Shown piece by piece: positions 3,689 through 56,780 of a stretch of 64,000 bases of DNA. Position 1 is the stretch's first letter. Each line of letters begins with the position of its first letter. The notes beneath the pieces were generated by a model. The model was not told the DNA's origin. It made no database searches and worked only from the letters and a program-made list of their open reading frames with translations. Source of the stretch: Streptomyces sp. NBS 14/10 (GTDB lineage Bacteria > Actinomycetota > Actinomycetes > Streptomycetales > Streptomycetaceae); assembly GCF_002224125.1 (NCBI RefSeq), contig NZ_NCSM01000004.1:488130-552129 (forward strand). The letters are read 5' to 3'. A program made the translations under genes and the position numbers.

Positions 3689-3703
3689 GAGAATCACATT
3701 CTC
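3689..3703. promoter_or_regulatory. Island operator 1, exact GAGAAT-CAC-ATTCTC
   Basis: Exact 15-bp inverted repeat between the GntR gene stop (3727) and the hydratase start (3634). It lies in the promoter region of the minus-strand hydratase/dehydrogenase/ligase operon. It is one of six exact copies of the same palindrome in this window. Confidence 0.8.
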
Positions 3704-3726
3704 GAGTGTTGTCGGGGCCGCGGGGG

Positions 3727-4536
3727 TCAGTCCTCGGGCTCGGTCAGCTCCACCCGGTCCCGCCGGTCCACCTCGGCGGCGGCGCGCGCGAACCCGCACA
3801 CATGGCGGCTCATCCGCCGCCGCGCCGCCGCCTCGTCGCCCGCCCGGATCGCCTCGTTGATCCGCGTGTGCGCGCGGGCCGTGAGCTCACGGATCCGGGC
3901 GTCCATGAACTGCTCCAGGTTGGTGGCCGCGTGGATCGACTCCGAAAGCGCGCTCAGAAACCCGATGAGCAGTTCGTTGTCCCCCGCCTTGGCCACCGCG
4001 TGGTGCCAGCGGATGTTGGCCCGCAGGAACCGCTGTACGTCGTCGCCGGCCTCGACCAGCTCCGTATGGGCGGCGTCCAGGTCCGCCAGGTCCCGCTCGC
4101 CGCGGCGCCGGGCCGCCAGCGCGGCGCACGCCGGCTCGATCGCCTCGCGGGTCTCGTGCAGCGCCTCCAGCCGGATCTGCTGCCCCCGGATGACCAACCG
4201 CACCGTGCTGGCCAGGGACTCGCGCCCCGGCCGGTGTACGAAGGCCCCGCCCCCGCGCCCCGGGCGGATCCGGACCAGTCGCTCGACCTCGAGGATGCGC
4301 AGCGCCTCCCGTACGGTCGCACGGCTCAGCCCCGTCTGCTCCACGAGCTGCCGCTCCGGCGGCAGCGCCGTACCCTCGCTGAACTCCCCGGACAGGATCC
4401 GTTCGCGCACCTCGGCAGCCAGCACGTCCGACGCCTTCGGCACGGTGAGCGTTCCGAAGCGGGGGAAAGGCGAGGTGGGTTCGGCGCTGGGCACGGGTTC
4501 AGGCCTCTCGTCGGACGACCGTTTTGGCTGAACCAT
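3727..4536 (-). CDS. GntR-family (FadR subfamily) transcriptional regulator
   Basis: 269 aa. A winged helix-turn-helix spans about residues 38-105, with the characteristic GTALPPERQLVEQTGLSR and ATVREALRILEVERLVRI. A helical FCD ligand domain follows (about 120-250, including EAIEPACAALAARRR and RWHHAVAKAGDNELL). FadR-type proteins usually repress and are released by acyl-CoAs or organic acids. It sits at the end of the minus-strand run 6571 to 3727 (dehydrogenase, SDR, regulator). GGTCAGACC boxes stand before that run and before the operon immediately downstream, so autoregulated control of both is the likely role. Confidence 0.9.
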   Translation of the reverse strand: MVQPKRSSDERPEPVPSAEPTSPFPRFGTLTVPKASDVLAAEVRERILSGEFSEGTALPPERQLVEQTGLSRATVREALRILEVERLVRIRPGRGGGAFVHRPGRESLASTVRLVIRGQQIRLEALHETREAIEPACAALAARRRGERDLADLDAAHTELVEAGDDVQRFLRANIRWHHAVAKAGDNELLIGFLSALSESIHAATNLEQFMDARIRELTARAHTRINEAIRAGDEAAARRRMSRHVCGFARAAAEVDRRDRVELTEPED

Positions 4537-4560
4537 TCAACACAGCGGGGGCGCGGACTG

Positions 4561-5373
4561 TCACATGACCATGCCCCCGTCCACCGGCAGGACCTGGCCG
4601 GTGACGAAGGAGGCGGCGTCCGAGGCGAAGAACACGAACGCCCCCGCGACCTCCTCCGGCTCGGCCCACCGGCCCAGCGGGATCCGGGCGAGCATCCGCT
4701 CCGCGAACTTCGGGTCGGTGCGGATGGTCTCCGTCATCGGCGTGGCGGCCAGCGGCGCCAGGGCGTTGACCAGGATCCGCTTCCTGGCCAGCTCCCGGGC
4801 GAGCGACTTGGTGAGGCCGATGATGCCCGCCTTGGCCGCGGAGTAGTTCACCTGGCCCAGGGTGCCGGTGAGGCCGGCCGAGGAGGTGACGTTGATGACG
4901 CGCCCGGTGCCGTCCGTCGGCAGGAAGGGCAGCGCGGCCTGGGTGCAGTGGAAGGCGCCCATCACATGGATGTCGACCAGCCGCCGGAAGGACTCCTCCT
5001 CGAGCTTGTCGAACATGGCCGGGGCGGTGACCCCGGCGTTGTTGACCAGGATGTGCAGACGGCCGTCAGCGAGCGCGGCGGCCCGCGACACCGCGCTGTC
5101 GGCCGCGGCCCGGTCCCGTACGTCGAGGGCGGCGCTGTCGGCGGTCAGGCCCGAGGCGGAGAGCTTCCCGGCGACGGCGGCGGCCGCCGCCCCGTCGACA
5201 TCGGTCACGAGCACGGCAGCCCCGGCGCGGGCCAGCGCCCCGGCGACCGCCGAGCCGATACCGCCCGCGGCGCCGGTCACCAGCGCCGAGCGGCCCGTGA
5301 GGTCGAACAGTCCCGTACGGTCGGTCATCCCCGATCCGTCCATCCCTGATCCGTCCATCCCTGACTCCTCCAT
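4561..5373 (-). CDS. Short-chain dehydrogenase/reductase (SDR)
   Basis: Up to 270 aa classical SDR. The NAD(P)-binding motif is TGAAGGIG, NNAG appears mid-protein, and the catalytic block is NVTSSAG with YSAAK. It would oxidise a hydroxyacyl-CoA or reduce the ketone. The start is ambiguous: four in-frame ATGs (5373, 5358, 5343, 5328) sit in four 15-bp repeats. ATG 5373 and ATG 5358 each have a GAGGAG ribosome site, while the conserved protein only begins near MTDRTGLFDLTGR (5328). It is 31 bp downstream of the acyl-CoA dehydrogenase and followed by the GntR gene, so the three are probably one operon. Confidence 0.9.
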   Translation of the reverse strand: MEESGMDGSGMDGSGMTDRTGLFDLTGRSALVTGAAGGIGSAVAGALARAGAAVLVTDVDGAAAAAVAGKLSASGLTADSAALDVRDRAAADSAVSRAAALADGRLHILVNNAGVTAPAMFDKLEEESFRRLVDIHVMGAFHCTQAALPFLPTDGTGRVINVTSSAGLTGTLGQVNYSAAKAGIIGLTKSLARELARKRILVNALAPLAATPMTETIRTDPKFAERMLARIPLGRWAEPEEVAGAFVFFASDAASFVTGQVLPVDGGMVM

Positions 5374-5385
5374 CCCTGACTCCTC
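5326..5385. repeat. Four tandem 15-bp units carrying four in-frame ATGs
   Basis: Four consecutive 15-bp units of the type CATCCCTGAtCCgTC run through the start region of the minus-strand SDR gene. Each unit contributes one ATG and a purine stretch on the minus strand, adding the peptide repeat GMDGS to the N-terminus. The units differ by one to three bases. Copy number would change protein length in steps of five residues without a frameshift. Confidence 0.85.
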
Positions 5386-6745: not shown

Positions 6746-7588
6746 TCAGGCCTTGCCGCGGTCGGTCCCCCGGGAGGTGGTGGCCTTCTTGGCCGCGGCC
6801 TTCTTCGTCGCCGGCTTCTTCGCCGTCGCCTTCTTGGCCGGGGCCGTCTTCGCGGCGGCGCTCCGGGGGGCGGTCTTCTCGGCCGAGGTGGCGGCGGGGG
6901 TGCTGTCGACGGGCGGGCGGCCCGTGCCGGTGATGCCGCCCAGGCAGAACTCCCACACCTCGTCCGCGCTGATCGGTGAAGGATGGGCGCCGACCGGAGC
7001 CGCGGGCGCCTGGGCGGTGAACATCGCCGTCTGCATGATCAGCGAGGCGATACGGCGCGGCCTGGGCGCGACGGCCTGACCGGCCTCGACCGCCTCCTCC
7101 ACCAGCTCCGTGAAGAAGCTGAGCAGCGGCAGATGGGCGGTCGCCACCTGGTCCGGGTGGGTGACCAGCAGCTGGATGGCGAAGTCGGTGAACAGCGGGG
7201 ACTGCTGGCCCTCGCGGGGCCTGCAGGAGTCGTACAGCAGGTCGACCGCGATCCGCAGCCGGTCCAGCGGATCCCGTCCCTCCGCGGACTTCTCCCGGAT
7301 CTCGGTGGCCGACCTCGACAGCGCGTCCTCGAAGAGGGCGAGCAGCAGCTCATGCTTGCCGTCGAAGTGCTGGTAGAAGCTGCGCAACGACTGCCGGGAG
7401 CGCTCCACGACCTCCTGCACGGTGAAGTCGGTGGTGCCCTTGTCGGCGATCAACTCCTGGGCCGCGTCGAGGAAGCGCTGCACGCGCTGCTCGGCGCGCA
7501 GCTTCGCGGCCCGGGTGGATCGCTCGACGGCGCGCTGCCGCCAGGCGGGCTCGGGGGTCTCGACGGGTTCTGCGGGGACGGCACTCAT
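6746..7588 (-). CDS. TetR-family regulator with a histone H1-like lysine-rich C-terminal tail
   Basis: 280 aa. The N-terminal TetR helix-turn-helix is at about residues 35-80 (AAQELIADKGTTDFTVQEVV, then RSFYQHFDGKHELLLALF), and the ligand domain runs to about residue 220. The last 45-50 residues are an Ala/Lys/Pro/Thr repeat (AKKATAKKPATKKAAAKKAT), as in the tails of actinobacterial HU-like and H1-like proteins; this is unusual for TetR proteins of about 200 aa. The gene is divergent from the dehydrogenase operon at 7744, with an exact island operator between them, so it is one candidate for the island-wide regulator. Confidence 0.9.
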   Translation of the reverse strand: MSAVPAEPVETPEPAWRQRAVERSTRAAKLRAEQRVQRFLDAAQELIADKGTTDFTVQEVVERSRQSLRSFYQHFDGKHELLLALFEDALSRSATEIREKSAEGRDPLDRLRIAVDLLYDSCRPREGQQSPLFTDFAIQLLVTHPDQVATAHLPLLSFFTELVEEAVEAGQAVAPRPRRIASLIMQTAMFTAQAPAAPVGAHPSPISADEVWEFCLGGITGTGRPPVDSTPAATSAEKTAPRSAAAKTAPAKKATAKKPATKKAAAKKATTSRGTDRGKA

Positions 7589-7681: not shown

Positions 7682-7696
7682 GAGAATGTTATTCTC
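7682..7696. promoter_or_regulatory. Island operator 2, exact GAGAAT-GTT-ATTCTC
   Basis: Exact palindrome, extended to 17 bp by flanking C and G (7681-7697). It lies in the divergent region between the TetR gene (7588, minus) and the dehydrogenase operon (7744, plus). Its position is compatible with control of both directions. Confidence 0.8.
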
Positions 7697-9793: not shown

Positions 9794-9804
9794 GGACATC
9801 GGCC

Positions 9805-13768: not shown

Positions 13769-13783
13769 GAGAATCATATTCTC
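13769..13783. promoter_or_regulatory. Island operator 3, exact GAGAAT-CAT-ATTCTC
   Basis: Exact palindrome 22 bp upstream of the TauD-family start at 13747. It lies in a 142-bp divergent region that holds two more degenerate copies (13807-13821 and 13850-13864). Confidence 0.8.
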
Positions 13784-13806: not shown

Positions 13807-13821
13807 GAGCATCATGTTCTC
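13807..13821. promoter_or_regulatory. Degenerate island operator, GAGCAT-CAT-GTTCTC
   Basis: Matches the consensus at 10 of 12 half-site positions. It lies midway between the divergent TauD and SDR genes, 38 bp (centre to centre) from the exact copy at 13769. Confidence 0.5.
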
Positions 13822-18998: not shown

Positions 18999-20375
18999 AT
19001 GACCGCACCGGACGCACCGGACACGACCGACGGCCGAGCCCGTAAACAACCCCGGGTCCACTTCGACCGGCACGCCCCCGAGTACCGGCACCGGTTCGAG
19101 GAGCAGACCCGGGAGTTCCACGCCCGCTGCCCGCTGGCCTGGTCCGATACCTACGGCGGACACTGGGTGGCCGCCGGCAACCGCGAGCTCCTGGCCCTCG
19201 CCCGGGCCGGCGACACCCTCTCCAACGACCACGACGTACACGGCGAGCGGCGGGGCTACCAGGGCATCAGCATCCCCGCGCCGCCCCGCGGCAGGGGCAT
19301 CCGGGGCGGTTTCCTGGAGATGGACCCGCCCGAACAGCGCGCCTACCGCAGCGCCCTCAACCCCTACCTCTCACCGGCGGCCGTCACGCGCTGGATCCCG
19401 TTCGTCGACGAGATCGCCCGCGCCTGCCTCGACGAGCGGATCGAGACCGGCCGGATCGACTTCGTCGACGACCTCGCCAACACCGTCCCCGCCGTTCTCA
19501 CCCTCGCCATGATGGGCATCCCGCTCAAGAAGTGGGAGCTGTACAACGAGCCCGCCCACTCCGGTGTCTACACCCCGCCCGACTCCCCGGAGATGGCCCG
19601 CGTGGTGCAGGCCCACCGGGCGATGCTCCAGGACATCGCGGCCACCATCCAGGACGTCCGCGCCCATCCGCGCCCCGGCCTGGCCGACGCCCTCGTCCGT
19701 ATGGAGATCGACGGCCGGGCCCCGGCCGAGGCGGACCTGGTCGGCGCCCTCGCGCTGCTCATCGGGGGCGGTTTCGACACCACCACCGCCCTGACCGCGC
19801 ACGCCCTGGAATGGCTCTCCCAGCACCCCGCCGAGCGCACCCGGCTCAGCCACGAGCGCGACACCCTGCTCGACACGGCCACCGAGGAGTTCCTGCGCTA
19901 CTTCACCCCGGCCCCCGGCGACGGCCGTACGGTCGCGCGGGACTGCGCCCTCGCGGGCGCCGAGTTCAAGGAGGGCGACCGGCTGTGGCTGTCCTGGGCG
20001 ATGGCCAACCGCGACCCCTCCGTCTTCCCCGACCCCGACCGCGTCGACCTGGCCCGCGGCGGCAACCGGCACACCGCGTTCGGCCTCGGCATCCACCGCT
20101 GCATCGGCTCCAACGTGGCCCGTACGGTCTTCAAACGGATGCTGGTCCATGTCCTCGACCGCATCCCGGACTTCGTATGCGACCCCGAGGGCACGGTCCA
20201 CTACCCGACCATCGGTGTCATCCAGGGCATGCGCCACCTCCCGGCCCGCTTCACCCCCGGCGAGCGCCTGGGCCCCGGCCTCGAAGAGACGCTGGTGACC
20301 CTCCAGCGGGCCTGTGACGAGCAGGGGCTCGCGGAGCCCGTCACCGTCCGCAGGGCGGAGGCGAAGATCCGTTGA
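18999..20375 (+). CDS. Cytochrome P450
   Basis: 458 aa, somewhat longer than the usual 400-410 aa soluble P450. The I-helix is GGGFDTTT, the K-helix ExxR is EEFLRY, and the heme-binding loop is FGLGIHRCIG with Cys near residue 368. About 60 residues follow the helix after the heme Cys, with an extended C-terminus (PGLEETLVTLQRACDEQG). It uses electrons from the ferredoxin encoded just upstream. The next gene begins inside its stop codon. Hydroxylation of the island substrate is inferred. Confidence 0.92.
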   Translation: MTAPDAPDTTDGRARKQPRVHFDRHAPEYRHRFEEQTREFHARCPLAWSDTYGGHWVAAGNRELLALARAGDTLSNDHDVHGERRGYQGISIPAPPRGRGIRGGFLEMDPPEQRAYRSALNPYLSPAAVTRWIPFVDEIARACLDERIETGRIDFVDDLANTVPAVLTLAMMGIPLKKWELYNEPAHSGVYTPPDSPEMARVVQAHRAMLQDIAATIQDVRAHPRPGLADALVRMEIDGRAPAEADLVGALALLIGGGFDTTTALTAHALEWLSQHPAERTRLSHERDTLLDTATEEFLRYFTPAPGDGRTVARDCALAGAEFKEGDRLWLSWAMANRDPSVFPDPDRVDLARGGNRHTAFGLGIHRCIGSNVARTVFKRMLVHVLDRIPDFVCDPEGTVHYPTIGVIQGMRHLPARFTPGERLGPGLEETLVTLQRACDEQGLAEPVTVRRAEAKIR

Positions 20376-23566: not shown

Positions 23567-24163
23567 GTGGTGTCCGCACAGCGTGAGGAAATCCTTCAGG
23601 CGGCGCTGGAGGTCTTCGGCGCCCGCGGGTTCAAGGGCACCTCGATCGACGCGGTCGCCGAGCGCGTCGGCCTCACCCGGCAGGGCGTACTGCACTACTT
23701 CCCCAGCAAGAAGCGTCTGTTGCTGGAGATCATGGAGTTCCGCCAGCGGCGCGTCCGGGAGCATCTGTCCGACCGGCCGGTCGGCGAGGACTGGGCCGGC
23801 GACTTCGCCGAGGTCATCGCCTTCGAACTCGACCACCCCTGCTTCGCCACCGTCCACAACGTGATGGTCGCCGAGGCGATCACCGGTCAGGAGCCGGCCG
23901 CCGGATATGTACGGGACCGCTGCCGCTCCATCCAGGACCATCTCACCGAGCGGCTGATCGAGCGGTACGGGGAGCGGCTGCCCAGCGGCCTCGACGCGCG
24001 GACCGCGGCGACCGCCGTCCACTGTCTGATCGAGGGCGTCCACCAGCTGTGGCTCGTGGACCGGGACGCCGACCGCTATCCGCAGGTCATTCGCGAGGCG
24101 CTGTCCGCACTGCTCGGCACGGAGGTGGCCGACGGGCCTCAGCCATCCGCGACGAAGGGGTAG
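23567..24163 (+). CDS. TetR-family transcriptional regulator
   Basis: 198 aa from GTG 23567 (ribosome site GGAAGG). Standard TetR HTH: ILQAALEVFGARGFKGTSID, then GLTRQGVLHYFPSKKRLLLE. The ligand domain contains ATAVHCLIEGVHQLWLVD. It lies 100 bp after the DoxX gene at the end of the long operon and converges with, and overlaps by 25 bp, the dehydrogenase gene at 24139. No island palindrome is visible directly in front of it, so it may read a different site. Confidence 0.9.
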   Translation: MVSAQREEILQAALEVFGARGFKGTSIDAVAERVGLTRQGVLHYFPSKKRLLLEIMEFRQRRVREHLSDRPVGEDWAGDFAEVIAFELDHPCFATVHNVMVAEAITGQEPAAGYVRDRCRSIQDHLTERLIERYGERLPSGLDARTAATAVHCLIEGVHQLWLVDRDADRYPQVIREALSALLGTEVADGPQPSATKG

Positions 24164-25081: not shown

Positions 25082-25096
25082 GGAAATGGTATTCTC
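25082..25096. promoter_or_regulatory. Degenerate island operator, GGAAAT-GGT-ATTCTC
   Basis: Right half-site exact and left half four of six, with a GGAGAA...TTTCC character when read on the other strand. It lies 56 bp upstream of the Rieske oxygenase ATG. Confidence 0.5.
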
Positions 25097-30654: not shown

Positions 30655-30669
30655 GAGAGTGCAATTCTC
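30655..30669. promoter_or_regulatory. Island operator, GAGAGT-GCA-ATTCTC
   Basis: One mismatch from the consensus. It lies in the 89-bp divergent region between the reductase (30628, minus) and the acyl-CoA ligase (30718, plus), so it can serve both operons. Confidence 0.7.
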
Positions 30670-32278: not shown

Positions 32279-32293
32279 GAGAATACGCTTCTC
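32279..32293. promoter_or_regulatory. Island operator, GAGAAT-ACG-CTTCTC
   Basis: One mismatch. It starts two bases after the ligase stop (32277) and ends 22 bp before the amidohydrolase ATG (32316). This implies a separate promoter for the 32316-38915 operon within an otherwise collinear block. Confidence 0.65.
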
Positions 32294-33494: not shown

Positions 33495-34942
33495 CCACCC
33501 CCGCACGGTGGCGCAGCATCCCCGAGCTGGTGCTCGGCGCCGCGACACGGTTCGGCGACGCGGAGGCCGTGGTCGACGGCGAGGAGCGGCTGACCTTCAC
33601 CGACCTCGCCGACCGGGTGCGGCGGACCGCCGGGGCGTTCGCCTCGGCGGGCGTCGGGCCGGGTGACCGGGTGGCGATCTGGGCGCCCAACTCGGCCGAG
33701 TGGATCGTCGCCGCGTTCGGTCTGCTCACGGCGGGCGGTGTCCTCGTCCCGGTGAACACCCGGTTCCGCGACGAGGAGGCGCACGACATCGTCGTACGCA
33801 GCGGAGCCAAGGCCCTGTGCGTCCAGAACGGCTTCCTCGACCGGGAGTTCGGCGGCCCGCCCGGCGTCCCCGTCATCGACCTGAAGACCGACGGGTTCCT
33901 CGCCTCGGGCGAACCCCTGGAGCGGAAGGTCGGCGAGGACGACCTGGCCGACATCATCTTCACCTCCGGCACGACGGGCCGCCCCAAGGGCGTGCTGACC
34001 ACCCACGGCCAGACGCTGCGGCTGTACGCCGAGTGGTGCGAACTGGCCGGGCTCCGGCAGGGCGACCGGTACCTGATCGTCAGCCCGTTCTTCCACATCT
34101 TCGGCTACAAGGCCGGCTGCGTCGCCTCCATGATCCGCGGCGCGACGATCCTGCCGGTCGCCGTCTTCGACGTCGACCGGGTGCTGGAGCTGGTGGAGAA
34201 GGAGCGGGTGACGGTCCTGCCCGGCCCGCCGACCGTCTACCACTCCCTGCTCGCGTCGGGCGGCGGCAGGGACCTGTCCTCGCTGCGGGTCGCGGTGACC
34301 GGCGCCGCCGACATCCCCGTCGAGCTGGTCCGCCGTATCACCACCGAACTGCCCTTCAGCCACCTCATGACGGGCTACGGCCTCACCGAGGCCGGCACCG
34401 TCACCGCCTCCCGCCCCGGCGACCCGTACGAGGCCGTCGCCAGCACCGTCGGCAGCCCCTGCGAGGGCTTCGAGGTGCGCCTGGCCGACGACAAGGAGGT
34501 CCTGGTCCGCGGCTACGCCGTCATGCGCGGCTATCTCGACGACCCCGAGGCCACCGCCGAGGCGATCGACGCCGACGGCTGGCTGCACACCGGCGACCTG
34601 GGCGAACTGGACGAGGCAGGGCGGTTGAAGATCATCGGCCGTAAGAAGGACATGTTCATCGTCGGCGGCTTCAACGCCTATCCGGCCGAGATCGAGGGCT
34701 TCCTGCTCCGGCACCCGGCCGTCGCCCAGGTCGCCGTCATCGGCGTGCCCGACGAGCGGATGGGGCAGGTCGGCAAGGCATTCGTCGTGCCGCGCGGCGA
34801 TTTCGCCGAGATCACAGCGGCGGAGCTGATCGCCTGGGCGAAGGAGCGCATGGCCGGCTTCAAGGTGCCCCGCCATGTGGTGTTCCGCACCGAACTGCCG
34901 CTGAACGCCACCGGCAAGGTGATGAAGGACCAACTGTCATGA
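33491..34942 (+). CDS. AMP-dependent acyl-CoA synthetase
   Basis: 483 aa, MTTPARWRSIPELVLGAATR; ATG overlaps the amidohydrolase stop. FTSGTTGRPKGVLTTHGQ, GYGLTEAG, WLHTGDLGELDEAGR and the Lys-bearing NATGKVMKDQL are all present, so the enzyme should be active. It is close in style to the partial ligase at 1-692 (same start motif SIPE/SIPN, FFHIFGYKAG). It would activate the acid released by the upstream amidohydrolase or the precursor of the mutase substrate. Confidence 0.9.
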   Translation: MTTPARWRSIPELVLGAATRFGDAEAVVDGEERLTFTDLADRVRRTAGAFASAGVGPGDRVAIWAPNSAEWIVAAFGLLTAGGVLVPVNTRFRDEEAHDIVVRSGAKALCVQNGFLDREFGGPPGVPVIDLKTDGFLASGEPLERKVGEDDLADIIFTSGTTGRPKGVLTTHGQTLRLYAEWCELAGLRQGDRYLIVSPFFHIFGYKAGCVASMIRGATILPVAVFDVDRVLELVEKERVTVLPGPPTVYHSLLASGGGRDLSSLRVAVTGAADIPVELVRRITTELPFSHLMTGYGLTEAGTVTASRPGDPYEAVASTVGSPCEGFEVRLADDKEVLVRGYAVMRGYLDDPEATAEAIDADGWLHTGDLGELDEAGRLKIIGRKKDMFIVGGFNAYPAEIEGFLLRHPAVAQVAVIGVPDERMGQVGKAFVVPRGDFAEITAAELIAWAKERMAGFKVPRHVVFRTELPLNATGKVMKDQLS

Positions 34943-36516
34943 CCCAAGACCCCCGTACCGCCTCCGGCATCCCCCTCAAACCGGTCTACGGCCCGGCCGA
35001 CCGCCGTACCGAACCGCCCGCCCCGGGCAGCTACCCGTTCACCCGCGGCAACTACCCGACCGGCTATCGGGGCCGCACCTGGACCCTGCGCCAGTACTCG
35101 GGATTCGGCACCCCGGAGGAGTCCAACCGCCGCTACCGCTATCTGCTCGACCAGGGCGGCACGGGCCTGTCGGTGGCGCTCGACCTGCCCACCCAGTGCG
35201 GCTACGACTCCGACGACCCGGAGTACGCCGACGAGGTCGGCCGGGTCGGCGTCGCCCTCGACACCCTCGCCGACGCCGAGATCCTGTTCGACACCATCCC
35301 GCTGGACCGGATCAGCACCAGCTTCACCATCAACGGCACCGCCGCGATCCTGCTCGCCTTGTACGTGGCCGCCGCCGAGAAGCGCGGCATCCCCAGGGCC
35401 AAGCTCACCGGCACGATCCAGAACGACATCCTCAAGGAGTACGCCTCACGCGGCACCTGGATCTGGCCGCCCGAACCGTCACTCAGGCTCATCGCCGACA
35501 CCATCGAGTTCTGCGCCGAACAGGTGCCCCGCTTCAACGCGATCTCGGTCGCCGGGGCGCACTTCCGCGACGCGGGCGCCAACGCCGTACAGGAGATGGC
35601 GTTCACGCTCGCCGACGGCGTCACATACTGCGAGACGGTGCTCGAACGCGGCCGTATGACCATCGACGAGTTCGCCCCGCAGATCTCCTTCTTCTTCTAC
35701 ACGCACGGCGATTTCTTCGAGGAGATCGCCAAGTACCGGGCGGGACGCAGACGCTGGGCCACGCTGGTGCGCGAGCGGTTCGGGGCGAAGACGGACAAGG
35801 CGTGCATGTTCCGCTTCGGCTGCGTCGCCGGCGGGGCCTCGCTGTACGCGCCGCAGGCCCGCAACAACACCGTGCGCGTCGCGTACGAGGCGCTGGCCTC
35901 CGTCCTCGGCGGGGTGCAGTCGATGTTCACCGCCGCATGGGACGAGCCGTTCGCGCTGCCCAGCGAGGAGTCCGCGACGCTCGCCCTGCGCACCCAGCAG
36001 ATCCTCGCCCATGAGACGGGCGTGCCCCGCGTCGCCGACCCGCTGGGCGGCTCGTACTTCGTGGAGGCGCTCACCGATGCCACCGAGGAACGCATCGTGC
36101 GGATCATGGCCGATCTGGAGGCCCACGGCGGCATGGTCCGCTGCGTCGAGGACGGCTACCTGCAAGGGCTCATCGCCGACGAGGCGTGGCGCGTACACCA
36201 GGAGACCGACTCCGGTGAGCGGCCGGTCGTCGGCGTCAACCGTTTCACGGTGGACGAACCGCCGCCCGACCTCGCCACCTACGAACTCGACGCCGAAGGC
36301 CGCGAACGGCAGCTCAAGCGGCTCGCGCGGGTGAAGTCGGAGCGGAGCACCGCCGACGTACGGGCCCGCCTCGCCGAACTGCGGCGTGCCGCCGAGAGAG
36401 ACACCAACCTGATGGATCCGCTGATCGCCTGTGTCAACGCCTACTGCACGGTCGGCGAGATGGCCGACGCCCTGCGCGAGGTGTGGGGCGAGTTCCGGCA
36501 GCCGGTGGTGTTCTGA
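34939..36516 (+). CDS. Acyl-CoA mutase, large substrate-binding subunit (methylmalonyl/isobutyryl-CoA mutase family)
   Basis: 525 aa TIM-barrel subunit of a B12-dependent carbon-skeleton mutase. Conserved [52 protein letters not shown] and [16 protein letters not shown] are clear. The residue equivalent to MCM Tyr89 appears to be Tyr (RQYSG), and the Arg near ASRGTW fits a carboxylated substrate; isobutyryl- and 2-hydroxyisobutyryl-CoA mutases usually carry Phe/Ile and Gln there. The cobalamin domain is on the next gene. Its placement suggests a pathway-specific rearrangement rather than housekeeping propionate metabolism. Confidence 0.88.
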
Positions 36517-36917
36517 TGCCGGCACCCGTGCGCGTACTCGTCGCCAAGCCCGGCCTCGACGGACATGACCGCGGCGCCAAACTCGTGGCCCGCCGGCTCA
36601 GGGACGCCGGGTTCGAGGTGGTGTTCACCGGCATCCGCCGACGCGTGGACGACATCGTCAGCACCGCCGTCCAGGAGGACGTGGCCGTCGTCGGCCTGTC
36701 CATTCTCTCCGGAGCCCACCTCGCGCTCACCCACCGCACGGTGGCGGCCCTGCGCGCGGCGGGCGCCGACGACATCCCTGTTGTGGTCGGCGGCACCATC
36801 CCGGCCGCCGACGTGGCGCGCCTGCGCGAGGCCGGAGCCGCCGCCGTGTTCCCCACGGGCACTTCGCTGGACGCGATCGTCGCGGACATCCGTGCCCTGA
36901 CCGCCCCGGAGGACTGA
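36516..36917 (+). CDS. Acyl-CoA mutase, small B12-binding subunit
   Basis: 133 aa from ATG 36516 (TGATG overlap with the large subunit). The cobalamin lower-ligand motif D-x-H-x-x-G is present ([16 protein letters not shown]), with the following SILSGAH and VVVGGTIP segments. The two-gene layout is that of isobutyryl-CoA and 2-hydroxyisobutyryl-CoA mutases. No MeaB/ArgK-type chaperone or epimerase is encoded nearby. Confidence 0.92.
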
Positions 36918-38943: not shown

Positions 38944-39711
38944 TCACGGCATCCCGCCGTCCACCCGAAGCGTCGCCCCGCTCGTGTACGAGGAGGCGTC
39001 GGAGATCAGGTACAGCGCGGCGCCCACCACCTCGGCCGGGTCGCCGATGCGCTGGAGGGCGTGCGGGCGGACGCCGTCGGCGAGCTGGTCCGGGTCCTGC
39101 TGCCAGCCGCGGGTGGCCCAGGTGGCGAACGGCCCGCACATCAGCGTGTTGACCCGGACCGCCGGGCCGAGCGCCTGCGCCAGCCCGACGGTCACCGCGT
39201 TCAGCCCGGCCTTGGCGGCCGCGTACGGCACGATCGCCGGGCGTGGCCGGATCGAGCCGGTGGAGCTGACGTTGACGATCGTGCCGCCGCCCGCCTCCGC
39301 CATCCGCGAACCGGCCAGCACGGACAGCCGGAACGGGCCCTTGAGGTTGAGGCCCAGCACCGAGTCGAACATCTGCTCAGTGACGGTGGTGAGGTCGTCG
39401 TAGACCGGGGACATGCCGGCGTTGTTGACCAGCGCGTCGAGCCTGCCGAAGCGCTCGTACACGGCGTCGACCAGACCCGGCAGCTCGTCCCAGCGGCCCA
39501 CGTGCACGGCATAGGGCAGGGCGGCGCGCCCCGTCCCCTTCTCGATCCCGGCGCTCACCGCGGCGCAGGCGTCGTACTTCCGGCTGGCGACGACCACGTC
39601 CGCGCCACAGCGCGCGGCGGCCAGCGCCATCGCGCGCCCCAGCCCCCGGCTGCCGCCGGTGACCAGGACCACCCGGCCGGAGAGGTCGAAGAGCTCGTCC
39701 GCGTACCCCAT
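38944..39711 (-). CDS. Short-chain dehydrogenase/reductase (SDR)
   Basis: 255 aa from ATG 39711 with GGAGGC upstream (MGYADELFDLSGRVVLVTGG). SDR signature: TGGSRGLG, NNAG, NVSSTGSIRPRP and YAAAKAG. The C-terminal SGATLRVDGGMP is intact. It is a single-gene minus-strand unit, divergent from the TetR at 39758 with a shared 46-bp region that holds one G-type and one C-type operator. Confidence 0.9.
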   Translation of the reverse strand: MGYADELFDLSGRVVLVTGGSRGLGRAMALAAARCGADVVVASRKYDACAAVSAGIEKGTGRAALPYAVHVGRWDELPGLVDAVYERFGRLDALVNNAGMSPVYDDLTTVTEQMFDSVLGLNLKGPFRLSVLAGSRMAEAGGGTIVNVSSTGSIRPRPAIVPYAAAKAGLNAVTVGLAQALGPAVRVNTLMCGPFATWATRGWQQDPDQLADGVRPHALQRIGDPAEVVGAALYLISDASSYTSGATLRVDGGMP

Positions 39712-39738
39712 GGCGCCTCCTGTAGGGTTCTCGATCCT

Positions 39739-39753
39739 GAGATTATGATTCTC
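39739..39753. promoter_or_regulatory. Island operator, GAGATT-ATG-ATTCTC
   Basis: One mismatch. It lies 28 bp upstream of the SDR ATG (39711, minus) and 4 bp before the TetR ATG (39758, plus), so occupancy would affect both genes. Confidence 0.65.
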
Positions 39754-39757
39754 TTTC

Positions 39758-40357
39758 ATGCAGAATAATATTCTGAAGTCGGATGTCGATGCCTTGCTGG
39801 ATGCCGGGCTGGCGCTGATGGTCGCGGGTGACGGGCGCGGGCCGCGCGTGGCCGACATCGTGGCCGCGGCCGGGCTGTCCAACGATGCCTTCTATCGGTC
39901 GTTCACCGGCAAGGACGCGCTGGTCGAGGCGATCGTCGAGCGTGGCGCGCGTACGGTCGTCGGATACGTACGCCACCGGATCGCGCAGGCGGCCGGGGAG
40001 GGGCCCGAAGCGCAGCTGCGGGCCGGGCTCGCGGCGGTGCTGCGGCAGGCGTCCGACGCCGGTCTCGCCCGGCAGACCCGGGCCGTCCTGGCCAACGCGA
40101 CCGGCGGCCCTGCCCCGCGCGCCGGTCATGTCACTGTCGCGCTGGTGGACGCGCTCACGGCGCTGTTCGCCGGGCCGGCCGCCGAGTTGGGGGCAGGTGA
40201 TCCGGTGCGTGCCGCGCGGACCGCCGCCGGTGCGGTGGTCGCCGCGCTGCAGTACTGGCTGTTCACGGAGGAGGTGCCAGGTCAGGTGGAGGTGGAGCAC
40301 CTGGTCGGCTTCGTCCTCGCGGGAGTGCGCGCGCCCGACGTCCGTAACCGGCAGTGA
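39758..40357 (+). CDS. TetR-family transcriptional regulator
   Basis: 199 aa, MQNNILKSDVDALLDAGLAL. HTH: RVADIVAAAGLSNDAFYRSF, then TGKDALVEAIV. The ligand domain has GAVVAALQYWLFTEEV. The first seven codons themselves form a perfect CAGAAT-AAT-ATTCTG palindrome, so the operator lies in the coding start and a leaderless or very short leader is likely. Two more sites of the same variant precede the next gene, so this protein is the best candidate for the C-type palindrome and probably autoregulates. Confidence 0.9.
   Translation: MQNNILKSDVDALLDAGLALMVAGDGRGPRVADIVAAAGLSNDAFYRSFTGKDALVEAIVERGARTVVGYVRHRIAQAAGEGPEAQLRAGLAAVLRQASDAGLARQTRAVLANATGGPAPRAGHVTVALVDALTALFAGPAAELGAGDPVRAARTAAGAVVAALQYWLFTEEVPGQVEVEHLVGFVLAGVRAPDVRNRQ
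39761..39775. promoter_or_regulatory. Variant operator, perfect CAGAAT-AAT-ATTCTG
   Basis: Perfect palindrome beginning three bases into the TetR start codon region; it encodes the N-terminal QNNIL. Outer base pair C/G replaces the usual G/C. Probably an autoregulatory site. Confidence 0.7.
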
Positions 40358-40371
40358 CCATCTCTGGACTG

Positions 40372-40386
40372 GAGAATGCCATTCTG
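40372..40386. promoter_or_regulatory. Hybrid operator, GAGAAT-GCC-ATTCTG
   Basis: First of two tandem sites upstream of the dehydrogenase at 40430; left half G-type, right half C-type. Centre-to-centre distance to the next site is 22 bp, about two helical turns. Confidence 0.65.
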
Positions 40387-40393
40387 TTAACTT

Positions 40394-40408
40394 CAGAACG
40401 CCATTCTG
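40394..40408. promoter_or_regulatory. Variant operator, CAGAAC-GCC-ATTCTG
   Basis: Second tandem site, 21 bp before the dehydrogenase ATG at 40430. It shares the GCC spacer and the C-type outer bases with its neighbours, on the same DNA face as the site at 40372. Confidence 0.65.
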
Positions 40409-40429
40409 ATGGAGAGTGGAGGCTGCGTC

Positions 40430-41755
40430 ATGTGGGACTTCAGTACCGAGGCCGAGTTCCAGCAGAGACTCGACTGGGCCGCCGGATTCGTCCGCGAGGA
40501 GATCGAACCGCTCGACGTCCTGTTCCCGGGAAACGCCGATCCGTACGACCGTGACAGCGAGGTCTTCCGCGAGGTGGTCCGTCCGCTGCAGGGGCGGGTG
40601 CGCGAGCAGGGGCTGTGGGCCGCTCATCTGCCGCCGTCGCTCGGCGGTATGGGCATGGGCCAGGTGAACCTGGGCCTGCTCAACGAGATCCTGGGCCGGT
40701 CGAGCTGGGCGCCGATGGTGTTCGGCACCCAAGCCCCGGACTCCGGCAACGCGGAGATCCTGGCCCACTACGGCAACGAGGAGCAGCGTACGAAGTACCT
40801 GGAACCGCTGCTCGACGGGCGGATCGTCTCCACCTTCGCGATGACCGAGCCGACCGGCGGCGCCGACCCCGGCGGCTTCGCCTGCCGCGCTGTCCGCGAG
40901 GGCGACGAGTGGATGATCAACGGCGAGAAGTGGTTCGCGTCCAACTACCCGCATGCCGCCTTCGTCATCGCCGTGGTGATCACGGACCCGGACGTGCCGG
41001 TGCACCAGGGCGCCTCCATGATCCTGATCCCGGCCGGAACGCCCGGCATGGAGATGGTGCGCGGAACGGGTCTGGCCGGGGAGCCACTGGGCCAGGGCGT
41101 CCACGCCTATCTGCGGTTCGCCGACTGCCGCGTCCCCGCCGACAACCTGCTCGGCGAGCCCGGCTCCGGCTTCCTCATCGCACAGACCCGGCTCGGCGGT
41201 GGGCGGCTGCACCACGCGATGCGGTCCGTAGGGCAGTGCAAGCGCGCACTGGAGATGATGACCGAGCGGATCGCTTCCCGTCGTACGCGTGGCGGCCCGC
41301 TCTCCGACCAGCAGTCCGTCCGCCACCAACTGGCCGACAGCTGGATCCAGATCGAGCAGTTCCGCCTCCAGGTCCTGCACGCGGCCTGGCAGCTGGACCG
41401 GGCAGGCCGCACCGGCGACAAGGCCGACGCGCGCCGCGCCCGCCTCCACGTCTCCGGTGTGAAGGTCGTCACCCCGAAGATCCTGGTCGACATCGCCTAT
41501 CGCGCCCTCCATCTGCACGGCGCCCTCGGCGTCTCCAACGAGCTGCCGCTGACCCGTATGTGGCAGTCAGGCCCGACGCTCGGCGTCGCCGACGGCCCCA
41601 CCGAGGCCCACCAGGACGTCGTGGCGCGACTCCTCCTCAAGGACGCCGTGCCCGCCGAGGACCCTCTCTTCGGCTCCGAACATCTGCCCACCCGGCTGGC
41701 CGCGGCCCGCGCCACCTACGCGGACCGGCTGAAGGAAACGGCGGTGACCTGGTGA
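40430..41755 (+). CDS. Acyl-CoA dehydrogenase of the ACAD10/11-like or LvaC-like type
   Basis: 441 aa from ATG 40430 (MWDFSTEAEFQQRLDWAAGF) with GGAGG nine bases upstream. It is longer than the other dehydrogenases. FAMTEPTGGADPGG, NGEKWFASNYPHAAFVIAVV, VGQCKRALEMMTERIASR and HGALGVSNELPLTRMWQ are present. It overlaps by GTGA an aminoglycoside-phosphotransferase-like kinase. The same two domains occur fused in vertebrate ACAD10/11 and side by side in bacterial LvaA/LvaC, where 4-hydroxyacyl-CoA is phosphorylated and isomerised to 3-hydroxyacyl-CoA. That chemistry is inferred here. Confidence 0.88.
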   Translation: MWDFSTEAEFQQRLDWAAGFVREEIEPLDVLFPGNADPYDRDSEVFREVVRPLQGRVREQGLWAAHLPPSLGGMGMGQVNLGLLNEILGRSSWAPMVFGTQAPDSGNAEILAHYGNEEQRTKYLEPLLDGRIVSTFAMTEPTGGADPGGFACRAVREGDEWMINGEKWFASNYPHAAFVIAVVITDPDVPVHQGASMILIPAGTPGMEMVRGTGLAGEPLGQGVHAYLRFADCRVPADNLLGEPGSGFLIAQTRLGGGRLHHAMRSVGQCKRALEMMTERIASRRTRGGPLSDQQSVRHQLADSWIQIEQFRLQVLHAAWQLDRAGRTGDKADARRARLHVSGVKVVTPKILVDIAYRALHLHGALGVSNELPLTRMWQSGPTLGVADGPTEAHQDVVARLLLKDAVPAEDPLFGSEHLPTRLAAARATYADRLKETAVTW

Positions 41756-42801
41756 CCACCGGCGACGATGCCAAAGAAGACCTCGGCCGCCTCAACGCCT
41801 GGCCGGGCCTCGCCGAGCTCCCCGGGGACGGCCCCGTGACCGCCCTGGAACCCCTCACCGGCGGCGCCCAGAACCTCCTGTTCACCCTCCGCCGCGCCGA
41901 CGGCACCGAACTCGTGCTGCGCCGCCCGGGACGCCAGCTGGCCTCCGGGGCCTCGGACGCCTTCCGGCGCGAGAGCCGCGCCCTCGCCGCCCTCGCCGAC
42001 ACGGACGTACCGCATCCGCGCCTGCACGCGAGCGTGCTCGAGGAATCGGTGCTGGGTGGTCCGTTCTCCGTTCTGGAGAAGATCGACGGCTTTATGCCAC
42101 GGGGCCGGCTGCCCGGCAGCTACGCCGAGGACGCCGAGTGGCGGCGTACGGTCGCCCTCGCCCTCGTCGAGGGCGCCGCGAGACTCGCCGCCGTCGACCC
42201 GTACGCGCATGGCCTGGACGACCTGGGCCGTGCCGAGGGCTGGCTGGAGCGGCAGCCGCCCAAGTATCTGAAGATGCTGCACGGCTACCGTGCCGACGCC
42301 ACCTACCGCGAGAACGAGTCCCCGCTGGTCGACACCGTCGCCGACTGGCTCACCGCCCACGCCCCGAAGTCCGGCGCCACCGGGATCGTCCACGGCGACC
42401 TTCAGCTCGCCAATGTGATGTTCGCCCACGACGCCCCGCGCCTCGCCGCGATCGTCGACTGGGAGATGACCTCGCTGGGCGATCCGCTGCTCGACCTGGC
42501 CTGGATCCTGACCGCCTGGCGGGAGAAGGGCGACCCGCCCGGCAGCGATCCGCAGTTCCAGCCCTGGGACGGGGTGCCCGGCCGGGCCGAGCTCGTCGCG
42601 TACTACGGCGAGGCGACCGGGCGCGACGTCTCCGCGTTCCGCTGGTACCAGGTCCTCGCCTGCTTCCGGCTCGCCGCCCTCCTCGAGGGCAGCTACGCCC
42701 GCGCCCTCGCCGGCCGGATGAACCGCGAACTCGGCGAGGGGCTGCACACCTACGCGGCCTGGCTGTGGGCCAAGGCGCGCCAGGAGATGGCCGCCGACTG
42801 A
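41752..42801 (+). CDS. APH-fold kinase, probable hydroxyacyl-CoA kinase (LvaA-like)
   Basis: 349 aa from GTG 41752 (overlap with the dehydrogenase). Phosphotransferase motifs: GGAQNLLFTLRRADGTELVL (nucleotide loop), catalytic HGDLQLANVMF and metal-binding DWEMTSLGDPLLDLAW. Such proteins are often labelled aminoglycoside phosphotransferase, but pairing with an ACAD10/11-type dehydrogenase argues for phosphorylation of a 4-hydroxyacyl-CoA, which prepares loss of phosphate and double-bond formation. Antibiotic resistance is unlikely from context. Confidence 0.85.
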   Translation: MTTGDDAKEDLGRLNAWPGLAELPGDGPVTALEPLTGGAQNLLFTLRRADGTELVLRRPGRQLASGASDAFRRESRALAALADTDVPHPRLHASVLEESVLGGPFSVLEKIDGFMPRGRLPGSYAEDAEWRRTVALALVEGAARLAAVDPYAHGLDDLGRAEGWLERQPPKYLKMLHGYRADATYRENESPLVDTVADWLTAHAPKSGATGIVHGDLQLANVMFAHDAPRLAAIVDWEMTSLGDPLLDLAWILTAWREKGDPPGSDPQFQPWDGVPGRAELVAYYGEATGRDVSAFRWYQVLACFRLAALLEGSYARALAGRMNRELGEGLHTYAAWLWAKARQEMAAD

Positions 42802-42809: not shown

Positions 42810-42858
42810 CGGCCGTCACCTGGGTCAATTGGGTCATGGGTCACTTGGGTCACTTGGG
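42810..42858. repeat. Short TGGGTCAnT repeats at an operon junction
   Basis: Several imperfect copies of (A/T)TGGGTCA occur between the kinase stop (42801) and the converging SDR end (42850), partly inside the latter. They give the SDR C-terminus its PPK ending. No function seen; probably slippage. Confidence 0.5.
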
Positions 42859-43635
42859 CGGGAACCTCAACCCGCCGTCCAGACGGATCACTTCGCCGTT
42901 GAGGTAGTCGTTCTCGCACAGGTGCTGGACCAGGGCCGCGTACTCCTCAGGCCGCCCCATCCGCCGCGGGTGGGGCACCTGCGGACCCCAGTACGCCTCC
43001 AGCGTGCCGGCTGCCTTCCCGTACGCGGGCGTGAGCACCGTGCCGGGCGCGACGGACACCACCCGGATGCCGAGCGGGGACAGGTCGCGCGCCGCGACCA
43101 GCGTCATCGCGCCCACCCCGCCCTTCGCGGCGGCGTACGGCAGCTGGCCGATCTGCCCCTCGTACGCCGCGATGGACGACGTCATGACGACCACGCCGCG
43201 CCCGCCGTCGTCGCCGGCCGGCGCGGTGCGGGCGATCGCCGCGGCGGCCAGCCGCAGTACGTTGAAGACCCCGGTCAGGTAGACGTCGACGGTGGTGCGG
43301 AATCCGGCGAGGTCCAGGGGGGAGCCGTCCTTGCCGACGAGCCGCCCGCCGCTCGCCGGGCCGCCGTGGCAGTCCACCGCGATACGGAACTCCCCGGCGT
43401 CCCCGGTGCCCCCGGCGTCCTCGGCCGCCTCGACGGCGGCCGTGACCGACGCCTCGTCCGTGGCGTCGGTGCGGACGTAGCGCACCCCGAGCTCGGCCTC
43501 CAGCGCCTTGCCCTTGTCGTCGGCGAGATCGGCGACCACGACCCGGGCTCCCGCGGCGTGCAGTCGCCGTACCGTCGCCTCGCCCAGCCCGCCCGCGCCG
43601 CCGACCACCAGGGCCGAGGAACCTTCGATGCGCAC
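42850..43635 (-). CDS. Short-chain dehydrogenase/reductase (SDR)
   Basis: 261 aa from GTG 43635 ([20 protein letters not shown]) with GAGAGGGG upstream. The cofactor motif GGAGGLG is a variant of TGxxx[23 protein letters not shown] contains the catalytic Ser, Tyr and Lys. This sequence pattern ([11 protein letters not shown], then [11 protein letters not shown]) is that of 3-hydroxyacyl-CoA dehydrogenase type II (HSD17B10-like), so oxidation of a 3-hydroxyacyl-CoA is likely. It is divergent from the ligase-thiolase operon across an exact operator. Confidence 0.9.
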
Positions 43636-43674: not shown

Positions 43675-43689
43675 GAGAATGGAATTCTC
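43675..43689. promoter_or_regulatory. Island operator, exact GAGAAT-GGA-ATTCTC
   Basis: Exact copy, extended to a perfect 19-bp palindrome ATGAGAATGGAATTCTCAT (43673-43691). Its right end contains the ATG of the plus-strand ligase (43690). It also lies 40 bp upstream of the minus-strand SDR start. Confidence 0.82.
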
Positions 43690-49442: not shown

Positions 49443-49457
49443 GAGAATGTGATTCTC
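49443..49457. promoter_or_regulatory. Island operator, exact GAGAAT-GTG-ATTCTC
   Basis: Exact copy 13 bp upstream of the SnoaL-like ATG (49429, minus strand), in the 136-bp divergent region shared with the importer operon at 49566. Confidence 0.8.
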
Positions 49458-49531: not shown

Positions 49532-49552
49532 GCTTCTCTAATAAGGAGAAGC
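49532..49552. promoter_or_regulatory. Perfect inverted repeat GCTTCTC-N7-GAGAAGC before the importer operon
   Basis: 7-bp arms separated by 7 bp. The right arm overlaps the degenerate operator at 49546-49560, and the whole element ends 13 bp before the permease ATG. It may be an mRNA hairpin in a short leader or a second operator geometry with a wider spacer. Confidence 0.4.
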
Positions 49553-55131: not shown

Positions 55132-55170
55132 CCGGACCGCTCGCCCGGACCGCTCGCCCGGACCGCTCGC
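55132..55170. repeat. Three exact 13-bp tandem units CCGGACCGCTCGC
   Basis: Contiguous units at 55132, 55145 and 55158 in the 122-bp space between the converging amidohydrolase (55084) and ferredoxin (55207) genes. No coding or terminator structure is obvious. Confidence 0.75.
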
Positions 55171-55206
55171 TCAGGGCCGCGACGGGCGGCAGGCACCGGC
55201 CACGGG

Positions 55207-55398
55207 TCAGTTCAGCACGGTGATGGCACGTTCGGGGCAGGACATCGCCGCGGTGCGTACGGCCTGCTCGAACTGCGCTGGAACGTCGGCCGGTTCGACG
55301 ACCGCGTAGCCGTCGTCGCCGATGTCGAAGACCTCGGGGCAGAACGTGCAGCAGACCGCGTGTCCGCGGCAGCGGTCCTCGTCGATGACGACCTTCAT
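55207..55398 (-). CDS. 3Fe-4S-type ferredoxin (P450 partner)
   Basis: 63 aa, MKVVIDEDRCRGHAVCCTFC. Cysteines at C-x5-C, an extra Cys pair (CCTFCP) and the C-terminal SCPERAI. The extra Cys could allow a 4Fe-4S cluster; the size and the downstream end match P450 ferredoxins. ATG overlaps the P450 stop by ATGA, so the two are made together. Confidence 0.9.
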   Translation of the reverse strand: MKVVIDEDRCRGHAVCCTFCPEVFDIGDDGYAVVEPADVPAQFEQAVRTAAMSCPERAITVLN

Positions 55399-56708
55399 CG
55401 GGTGGCCTCCCCGGCGGGCGCGAATTCCAGATTGAGGTGGGTCAGGCCCCGCAGGATGTACGTCGGCAGATACCGGTAGCGGCGCGCGCCCGCGGGGCCG
55501 TGCACACGCTCGGAGATCCTGATGTCGCTGGTGCGGTCCAGCAGCCTCTCGATGCCCACCCGCGCCTCGGCCCGGGCCAGCGGTGCGCCGGGGCAGGTGT
55601 GGATGCCGCGGCCGAAGGCGAGGTGGTGACGGGCGTTGGGACGGGCCGGATCGAAGGTGGCCGGGTCCTCGAACTTGCGCGGATCGCGGTTGGCGGCGCC
55701 GTTGAGCAGCATGAGGGTGGTGCCCGCCGGAATGTCGACGCCGCCCACCGTGGTGGGGATCCGGGAGAGCCGGAAGTCGCCCTTGACCGGGCTCTCCGCC
55801 CGCAGCACCTCCTCGACGAAGTTGGGGATGAGACCGCGTTCCGCGCGCAACCGCTCCTGGACCTCCGGGTGTTCGGCGATCAGCATGAGTGCGGAGCTGA
55901 GCAGCCGTACGGTCGTCTCCTGCCCGGCCGAGAACACATTGGCGGCCACCCGCACCGCATCGGCGACATCGGGCAGGGAGCCGTCCGGGAACCTGGCGGT
56001 GGCCAGGCCGGTCAGCACATCGTCGCGTGGCTGCCGCCGCCGGTCCTCGATGTAGTCCGCGAAGCGCCCGTACAGGAACTCCAACGGCGAGTGCGCCATC
56101 GCGCCCTCGCCGGTGCTGCCGATGGCGCCCCCGGCCCGCGGCCGGCGCTGGAGCCGGTCGAGGAATTCCTCCCGGTCCTCCTCGGGCACCCCCAGCAGAT
56201 CGGCGATGACCAGCAGTGTGAAGGGGCCGGCGAACTCGCTGATGAACTCGCCCTCGCCACGCGCCAGGAAGGTGTCCAGCATCCGGTCGGCGATCTCCCC
56301 GATCGCCGCCTCGTTCTGCTTGAGGCGCTTGGGCGTGATCAGCCGCATCAGCAGTGCGCGGTGCGCGGTGTGCACCGGCGGGTCGAGGGTCGGCAGCTGG
56401 TCGCTCATCGGCAGCTCGTCGCGGTGCCGCTCGATCAGGTCGCTGACGTCGTCCCCCTCGAGCGGGACCGGGAAGCCAGGGAAGGGGCCGGTGACCGAGA
56501 CGCAGGCCGAGAAGGTCTTGGAGTCCTGGGCCACCTCCACCACCTCGTCGTATCCCGTCACCATCACGACGTCGTGGTGGGGTTCGCGGAGCACGGGACA
56601 GCGTGTCCGCAGGGAGTCGAAGTAGGGGTACGGGTCCGCCACCGCCCCGTCGTCACGGAAGAAGTCGATCGCGTGAATGTCGTCGGACGGCTCGTCGGTG
56701 GGCGCCAC
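55395..56708 (-). CDS. Cytochrome P450
   Basis: 437 aa. I-helix FSAGQETT (the usual acid-Thr pair appears as Glu-Thr), K-helix EEVLR, heme loop FGRGIHTCPG with Cys near residue 372. N-terminal DPYPYFDSLRTRCPVLREPH is typical of actinobacterial class I P450s. It is preceded by an exact island operator and followed by its ferredoxin. It differs clearly from the P450 at 18999, so two distinct hydroxylations are likely. Confidence 0.93.
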   Translation of the reverse strand: MAPTDEPSDDIHAIDFFRDDGAVADPYPYFDSLRTRCPVLREPHHDVVMVTGYDEVVEVAQDSKTFSACVSVTGPFPGFPVPLEGDDVSDLIERHRDELPMSDQLPTLDPPVHTAHRALLMRLITPKRLKQNEAAIGEIADRMLDTFLARGEGEFISEFAGPFTLLVIADLLGVPEEDREEFLDRLQRRPRAGGAIGSTGEGAMAHSPLEFLYGRFADYIEDRRRQPRDDVLTGLATARFPDGSLPDVADAVRVAANVFSAGQETTVRLLSSALMLIAEHPEVQERLRAERGLIPNFVEEVLRAESPVKGDFRLSRIPTTVGGVDIPAGTTLMLLNGAANRDPRKFEDPATFDPARPNARHHLAFGRGIHTCPGAPLARAEARVGIERLLDRTSDIRISERVHGPAGARRYRYLPTYILRGLTHLNLEFAPAGEATR

Positions 56709-56765
56709 TGGCCCGCCTCCCTCGCTCTGGAACGGCAGTCGGATGGTGATTGGATTCTCGCAGCA

Positions 56766-56780
56766 GAGAATCTAATTCTC
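56766..56780. promoter_or_regulatory. Island operator, exact GAGAAT-CTA-ATTCTC
   Basis: Exact copy 57 bp upstream of the P450 ATG (56708, minus), with an additional half-site ATTCTC at about 56754-56759. It lies in the divergent region shared with the TetR gene at 56905. It is the last copy I see in the window. Confidence 0.8.

Follow-up and report, generated by a model that had tools for sequence, protein, structure and literature searches.

The stretch analyzed here, called the window, is 64,000 nucleotides of contig NZ_NCSM01000004.1 of Streptomyces sp. NBS 14/10 (positions 488,130 to 552,129 of the forward strand); it carries a catabolic gene island in which the palindrome GAGAAT-N3-ATTCTC recurs at promoters and in which several regulators of the TetR family are encoded. 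The island includes acyl-coenzyme A (CoA) ligases, hydratases, CoA transferases, amidohydrolases, and Rieske and luciferase-like oxygenases. Its acyl-CoA dehydrogenases include three full-length/short-form pairs, and there are also two cytochromes P450 with ferredoxins and a branched-chain-type ATP-binding cassette (ABC) importer. Genes were called with a simple script trained on the window, and the short-chain dehydrogenase/reductase (SDR) gene at 42850-43635 was added separately after the script had passed over it. The four TetR genes counted in an earlier, sequence-only reading of this DNA are present (6746, 23567, 39758, and 56905), as are a GntR gene and, to the right of the last palindrome, a LysR gene.

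The same reading had listed six exact copies of the palindrome, and each lies where it was placed. The site at 3689-3703 is upstream of a leftward enoyl-CoA hydratase/acyl-CoA dehydrogenase operon (from 3634), and that at 7682-7696 occupies the divergent promoter between the TetR gene 6746 (minus strand) and the acyl-CoA dehydrogenase gene 7744 (plus strand). The copy at 13769-13783 separates a TauD-like dioxygenase gene (minus strand) from SDR, aldehyde dehydrogenase, and CoA-transferase genes (plus strand). Farther right, the site at 43675-43689 ends at the ATG of the acyl-CoA ligase gene 43690 (plus strand), and the SDR gene 42850-43635 on the minus strand makes this promoter divergent as well. 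The last two exact copies stand at 49443-49457, between SnoaL-like and acyl-CoA dehydrogenase genes (minus strand) and the ABC-transporter operon 49566 (plus strand), and at 56766-56780, between a CYP150-like P450 gene with its ferredoxin (minus strand) and the TetR gene 56905 (plus strand).

The imperfect copies have similar positions. Sites with one mismatch lie at 30655-30669, between a flavin/2Fe-2S reductase gene (minus strand) and an acyl-CoA ligase gene (plus strand), and at 32279-32293, upstream of amidohydrolase, ligase, and mutase genes (plus strand). Sites with two mismatches lie at 13807-13821, in the same promoter region as the exact copy at 13769, and at 25082-25096, between the dehydrogenase gene 24990 (minus strand) and the Rieske oxygenase gene 25152 (plus strand). 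A tandem pair with 22-bp spacing is found between an SDR gene (minus strand) and the TetR gene 39758 (plus strand), its first member at 39739-39753 and its second, at 39761-39775, overlapping the start of the TetR gene. A second such pair, at 40372-40386 and, 22 bp on, at 40394-40408, is upstream of the acyl-CoA dehydrogenase gene 40430 (plus strand). Of the near-copies reported earlier, those at 13807, 13850, 25082, 30655, 32279, and 39739 are present, and that at 49546 falls outside the matches with up to three mismatches. Neither 49546 (score 9.0, four mismatches) nor 13850 (score 8.6, three mismatches) was retained as a firm site, and both are doubtful. The sites at 39761, 40372, 40394, and 56745 add to the earlier list. 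To the right of 56,780, where no copies had been noticed, nothing in the window scores 7 or more. A match at 35419 was rejected as an operator; it lies within the mutase gene, and its letters recur in other genomes because they encode a conserved QNDIL stretch. Altogether the supported sites occupy 11 intergenic regions, 8 of them divergent by the gene calls, for up to 19 transcription units.

In the 12.1-Mb genome the exact palindrome occurs at seven places, six in the window and one on contig C13. Of the six one-mismatch places, the window has four and C13 has one; the last, C95:243098, sits inside a 968-residue open frame and was rejected as a site. With up to two mismatches allowed, the palindrome is matched at 90 places genome-wide, compared to 15 for the reversed control pattern; with up to three, the window holds 20 matches, compared to 5.48 ± 2.31 (largest, 12) in 100 shuffles. 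We built a scoring matrix from 11 window sites, including the one at the promoter of TetR 6746, and no site scoring at least 16 was found in the 200 kb of the same genome that flank, yet lie outside, the clusters in the window and on C13. The C13 cluster (about 575-594 kb; loci L017 and L018) has three sites among P450-like, SDR, and dehydrogenase genes. One of them, the exact copy, is just before yet another TetR gene, which places other TetR genes among the likely targets; a 67-68% paralogue of TetR 23567 is encoded there too. The proposal of a single regulon is partly borne out, one operator and one regulator being well supported, and the regulon extends past the island to this second cluster.

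Placement and spacing were then compared across clusters from other genomes. Genes in these were named by their best BLAST match to window proteins unless Pfam supplied a name. The set comprised 56 nonredundant regions (1.71 Mb), from which 40 of 80 named loci (>85% alike) and loci L096 and L098, apparent repeats of genomes G178 and G019, had been dropped. Of the 193 sites scoring at least 18 in these regions, 183 lie no more than 350 bp upstream of a called gene, a position that 33% of random positions also satisfy; 4 are in coding DNA only and 6 are elsewhere, the coding share of the full-set DNA being 89%. The sequence-only reading had offered equally frequent matches inside unrelated genes as grounds for its own rejection, and these counts go the other way.

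Sites are often paired. Among pairs within 80 bp in the nonredundant regions, 28 of 38 are spaced 21 or 22 bp apart, and 62 of 171 sites scoring at least 20 have a partner (score of at least 8) at one of these distances. When the TetR promoters are left out, the fraction is 46/138, and every other offset reaches at most 4/138; homologous promoters share ancestry, so that the pairs are not all independent events. In the window, a partner scoring above 8 is present at four promoters: 25104, a weak partner 22 bp after 25082; 39761; 40394; and 56745-56759, also weak and 21 bp ahead of the exact copy at 56766. The tandem 21-22 bp spacing is a new feature of the operator. It suggests two dimers side by side; a spacing of two helical turns would suit a pair of dimers on one face of the DNA.

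The best candidate for the protein that reads these sites is the TetR-family regulator encoded at 6746-7588 on the minus strand; relatives in Streptomyces, Nocardia, Actinomadura, Mycobacterium, and further actinobacteria seem to recognize the palindrome too. It is 280 residues long, with a predicted helix-turn-helix (HTH) at residues 40-85 and a single TetR_N match (PF00440, 39.9 bits against a cutoff of 24). Its AlphaFold model is essentially helical, with a predicted local distance difference test (pLDDT) score of 72.8 and a predicted template modeling score of 0.64, and TetR-family chains are its best matches. Residues ~223-280 form a Lys/Ala-rich, histone-H1-like C-terminal tail with pLDDT below 50, and several orthologues do not have this tail. 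The genome encodes a single protein of this type, the next match having an E value of 5e-8; the sites on C13, if used, would consequently be read in trans.

Motif and regulator travel together. Among 200 genomes of the window's family, the exact motif is found in 9, the TetR (E ≤ 1e-40) in 9, and both in 8 (Fisher's test, 1.5e-12). In 98 genomes from the genus to which Mycobacterium numidiamassiliense belongs, the motif is present in 80, the TetR in 81, both in 78, the motif only in 2, the TetR only in 3, and neither in 15 (6e-13); both tests ignore kinship. The sites are often clustered in the motif genomes; G103 has 6 of them in 49 kb, and a single contig of G178 has 6 within 70 kb. A site precedes the TetR start in seven of eight family clusters, and the second TetR copy of G018 has an upstream site scoring 24.9. 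Of the TetR-only genomes in this second set, G260 carries a site with one mismatch 144 bp ahead of its TetR gene, and the protein of G213 is a distant relative (36% to the window protein) in a different context.

A further set of named genomes, covering 80 of the 207 relatives found, many of them close to one another, spans Streptomyces, Actinomadura, Nocardia, Thermomonospora, Rhodococcus, Prauserella, Mycobacterium, and others. A site scoring at least 16 lies between −350 and +30 of the TetR match in 65 of the 80 loci. After collapse at 85% protein identity 28 of 40 loci are positive, whereas 200 column-permuted matrices reach 0.24 of these 40 loci on average and 11 at most. Exact sites number 7 in M. 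numidiamassiliense, 5 in Rhodococcus globerulus, 10 in Nocardia vaccinii, 5 in Prauserella endophytica, and 4 in Actinomadura craniellae, with 0 control sites.

Computation establishes the sites themselves, where they stand relative to genes, their tandem spacing, the joint inheritance of motif and 6746-type TetR, and the presence of a copy at the promoter of this TetR gene. We put at roughly 0.87 the probability of the reading to which these results point, in which GAGAAT-N3-ATTCTC would be the operator of the island-encoded TetR 6746-7588, and this protein would control the catabolic pathway as a ligand-released repressor. It would occupy its own promoter and would also sit at up to 19 transcription units of the pathway, most likely in dimeric form and at many sites as a pair of dimers with 21-22 bp spacing. 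The pathway substrate would be a carboxylic acid that is hydrophobic and probably cyclic, of terpenoid- or steroid-like structure, and a CoA-thioester intermediate binding to the C-terminal domain would release the protein from its operator. Physical binding, repression over activation, the ligand, and the substrate are the parts of this scheme that we infer. A CoA-thioester ligand is weakly suggested by a Foldseek comparison of the 6746 model, in which acyl-CoA regulators are frequent among the 50 matches listed, with FadR chains at ranks 1, 2, 7, and 8, among others, KstR2 at rank 30, and FasR at rank 33.

Several observations weigh against this scheme. Fifteen of the 80 TetR relatives have no upstream site scoring at least 16, and 7 of these 15 loci have no site of at least 20 anywhere in the fetched locus (8 have one elsewhere). 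The first TetR copy of G089 has no site and the second has two weak ones (14.1 and 15.5); G003 has the TetR and no site of at least 12 in 60 kb, with one degenerate site discerned by eye. Conversely, an exact site occurs without the TetR in G164 (one site) and, in the second genome set, in G248 and G274. TetR 23567 (E ≤ 1.2e-49) is likewise confined to motif genomes (7/200). The substrate proposal draws on gene content only. The Foldseek list also includes Rv0078, EthR2, YvdT, RolR, and QacR, and the argument for a CoA ligand is weak because that list is mixed, the model is of moderate quality, and TetR folds are alike.

Two promoters bear on the direction of control. The site at 43675 ends at the ATG of 43690 and that at 39761 overlaps the ATG of 39758, positions at which a bound protein would be expected to block expression. 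They speak against the idea that TetR 6746 is the right protein and acts as an activator like FasR, an unlikely idea to which its best NCBIfam match, FasR itself, lends something, at 33.7 of 330 bits and so far under the cutoff.

TetR 39758 (39758-40357, plus strand), with tandem sites on both sides, is a likely target and possibly a second regulator. It would be decidedly improbable as the cognate regulator, or as a second one using the same operator. The pairs 39739/39761 and 40372/40394 flank its gene, and an 82% relative in G009 also adjoins a tandem pair. Against it, the fetched clusters yielded a single close orthologue, that of G009, besides a 39% one in G018, no genome-wide search having been made for this protein; two loci from mycobacteria have a 34% relative encoded third or later in a run of genes whose first member is preceded by the site, an arrangement like that of a target. 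The sole PDB match of TetR 39758 is the second HTH of Mce3R.

TetR 23567 (23567-24163, plus strand) has orthologues in several of the same clusters, and its chance of being the protein that reads the palindrome is smaller again. Orthologues at 43-71% identity (E ≤ 1.2e-49) occur in 7 of 200 genomes, the window's own included, all 7 of which carry the motif, and its paralogue lies in the C13 cluster. None of the seven 23567-type genes examined (window, C13, G009, G178, G019, G103, and G030), however, has a site within 250 bp upstream, as judged by eye and by the lack of any matrix match of at least 13, with the G018 copy left out of this check. Moreover, G089 carries a motif cluster and no 23567 relative at E ≤ 1e-30, and 17 further genomes with weaker relatives have no motif. 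Both 23567 and 39758 are more likely members or targets.

TetR 56905 was rejected as the main regulator; its sole matches in the fetched stretches (G089 and L023) cover about 60 residues in the HTH region, no search of the 200 genomes having been made for this protein. Of the three proteins earlier proposed for gel shifts (6746, 39758, and 56905), 6746 fits best; it co-occurs with the motif in both sets of genomes, and a site stands at its promoter and at those of relatives. That the palindromes are chance matches or a repeated element without regulatory role has next to no probability, for although some matches are plainly not operators (35419 in the mutase gene and C95:243098 in its 968-residue frame), the sites are scarce outside the clusters, lie at promoters, and recur with the TetR across genera. 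In addition to TetR 6746, a GntR/FCD regulator may form a second control layer; its gene (3727-4494, minus strand) has counterparts 79-86% identical over near-full length in four other clusters and over 95 residues in a fifth.

As to what TetR 6746 would control, our best guess for the pathway substrate, from gene content, is an acid of cyclic terpenoid- or steroid-like structure that would be processed in the form of CoA thioesters. The P450 encoded at 18999-20375 (plus strand) has P450cin and CYP125 as its nearest solved chains, and that encoded at 55395-56708 (minus strand) is close to CYP150A6 (516 bits). CYP150A5 of Mycobacterium marinum converts beta-ionone to 4-hydroxy-beta-ionone (PMC6237146). 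The thiolase at 20372 has a ChsH2-type OB domain, and its nearest solved chain is 6ok1, a lipid-transfer protein with ChsH2; for the Rieske enzyme it is carnitine monooxygenase, with a modest score, and for the TauD-like protein a 2,4-D-dioxygenase-like chain. A two-subunit B12-dependent acyl-CoA mutase is encoded at 34939-36917 on the plus strand (subunits 34939-36516 and 36516-36917). It matches 2-hydroxyisobutyryl-CoA mutase at 518.9 bits, compared to 479.4 for methylmalonyl-CoA mutase, and reads Tyr where the former has Ile90. From its sequence, the substrate of this mutase may be unusual.

The cluster of M. numidiamassiliense extends over about 96 kb between its outermost strong sites and holds an Mce-type operon, in which Pfam recognizes two MlaE permeases and one Mce4_CUP1 protein; this operon directly follows a CoA-transferase gene preceded by two sites. 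In three other genomes of the Mycobacterium set an exact site stands before genes for a two-subunit oxidoreductase (L170:10222, L172:10346, and L173:9816), and both large subunits scanned (L170 and L172) have pyruvate-ferredoxin-oxidoreductase domains by Pfam. The enzyme would be a 2-oxoacid ferredoxin oxidoreductase, presumably KorAB. In two genomes of the set, relatives of window genes 38944-42801 are found apart from the main cluster with an exact site of their own before them (L161:10461 and L169:10210). Judged by its sites, the mycobacterial regulon appears to reach the Mce-type import operon, a CYP150-like P450, and the distant two-subunit 2-oxoacid:ferredoxin oxidoreductase.

For this large group of catabolic genes, a regulator can now be proposed together with its operator and its targets. 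TetR and motif occur as a pair in 78 of the 98 genomes sampled from one genus of the Mycobacterium type and in 8 of the 200 sampled from the Streptomyces family. A reporter strain based on the operator could be used to screen for the inducer, a direct lead to the substrate.

No paper printing the GAGAAT-N3-ATTCTC operator was found among the literature matches listed, and six spellings of the motif gave 0 matches, figures not being searchable. Half-site letters in the available text of PMC8228715, PMC7413915, and PMC6127294 belong to primers, and the operators named there (LcpR and EilR) differ; the available text of the PccD paper (PMC11596240) contains neither half-site. The regulon may nonetheless be partly in print under another name. 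In Mycobacterium sp. VKM Ac-1817D, a palindrome called motif X adjoins 14 operons, of which phytosterol raises 12 more than 3-fold, with P450, SDR, and aldehyde dehydrogenase genes among them; the motif is ascribed to the TetR protein G155_05115, an orthologue of Rv0767c, and is also present near the start of that TetR gene (PMC6593523). Motif X could be the same as the island palindrome. The likeness is one of description, the letters of motif X appearing solely in a figure of that source. The Rv0767c sites of M. tuberculosis are described as rich in GAC and GTC (PMC10312376), which does not favor identity with the island motif, and another source lists Rv0767c with a motif of E value 1.2e-14, its letters not given (PMC4482099).

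Other known systems offer partial likenesses. The FadR/FasR-type acyl-CoA-responsive TetR proteins resemble 6746 in fold by Foldseek, and the 6746 sequence scores far under the family cutoffs (33.7 against an NCBIfam cutoff of 330 bits for FasR). In the Mce3R regulon of M. tuberculosis, genes for lipid transport and oxidoreductases are likewise under a TetR-type protein. Each Mce3R chain contains two HTH units, and its sites are two asymmetric 25-bp sequences (PMC11667970); 6746, in contrast, has one HTH and a palindromic site. KstR and KstR2, which govern steroid catabolism in actinobacteria, are also TetR-type proteins whose palindromic operators recur across many catabolic operons. KstR regulons include P450s, paired acyl-CoA dehydrogenases, and thiolases with a ChsH2-type domain, and the window shares all three. 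The regulators and operators differ: 6746 scores 25.6 against the NCBIfam cutoff of 280 for KstR, and the KstR consensus TNNAACGTGTTNNA, as given in PMC8228715, differs by eye from the island operator GAGAATNNNATTCTC. We tentatively propose, at somewhat less than even odds, an actinobacteria-wide regulon parallel to yet apart from KstR/KstR2, with tandem 22-bp operators and a reach that includes the mycobacterial genes, that would serve the breakdown of a widespread cyclic terpenoid- or steroid-like substrate.

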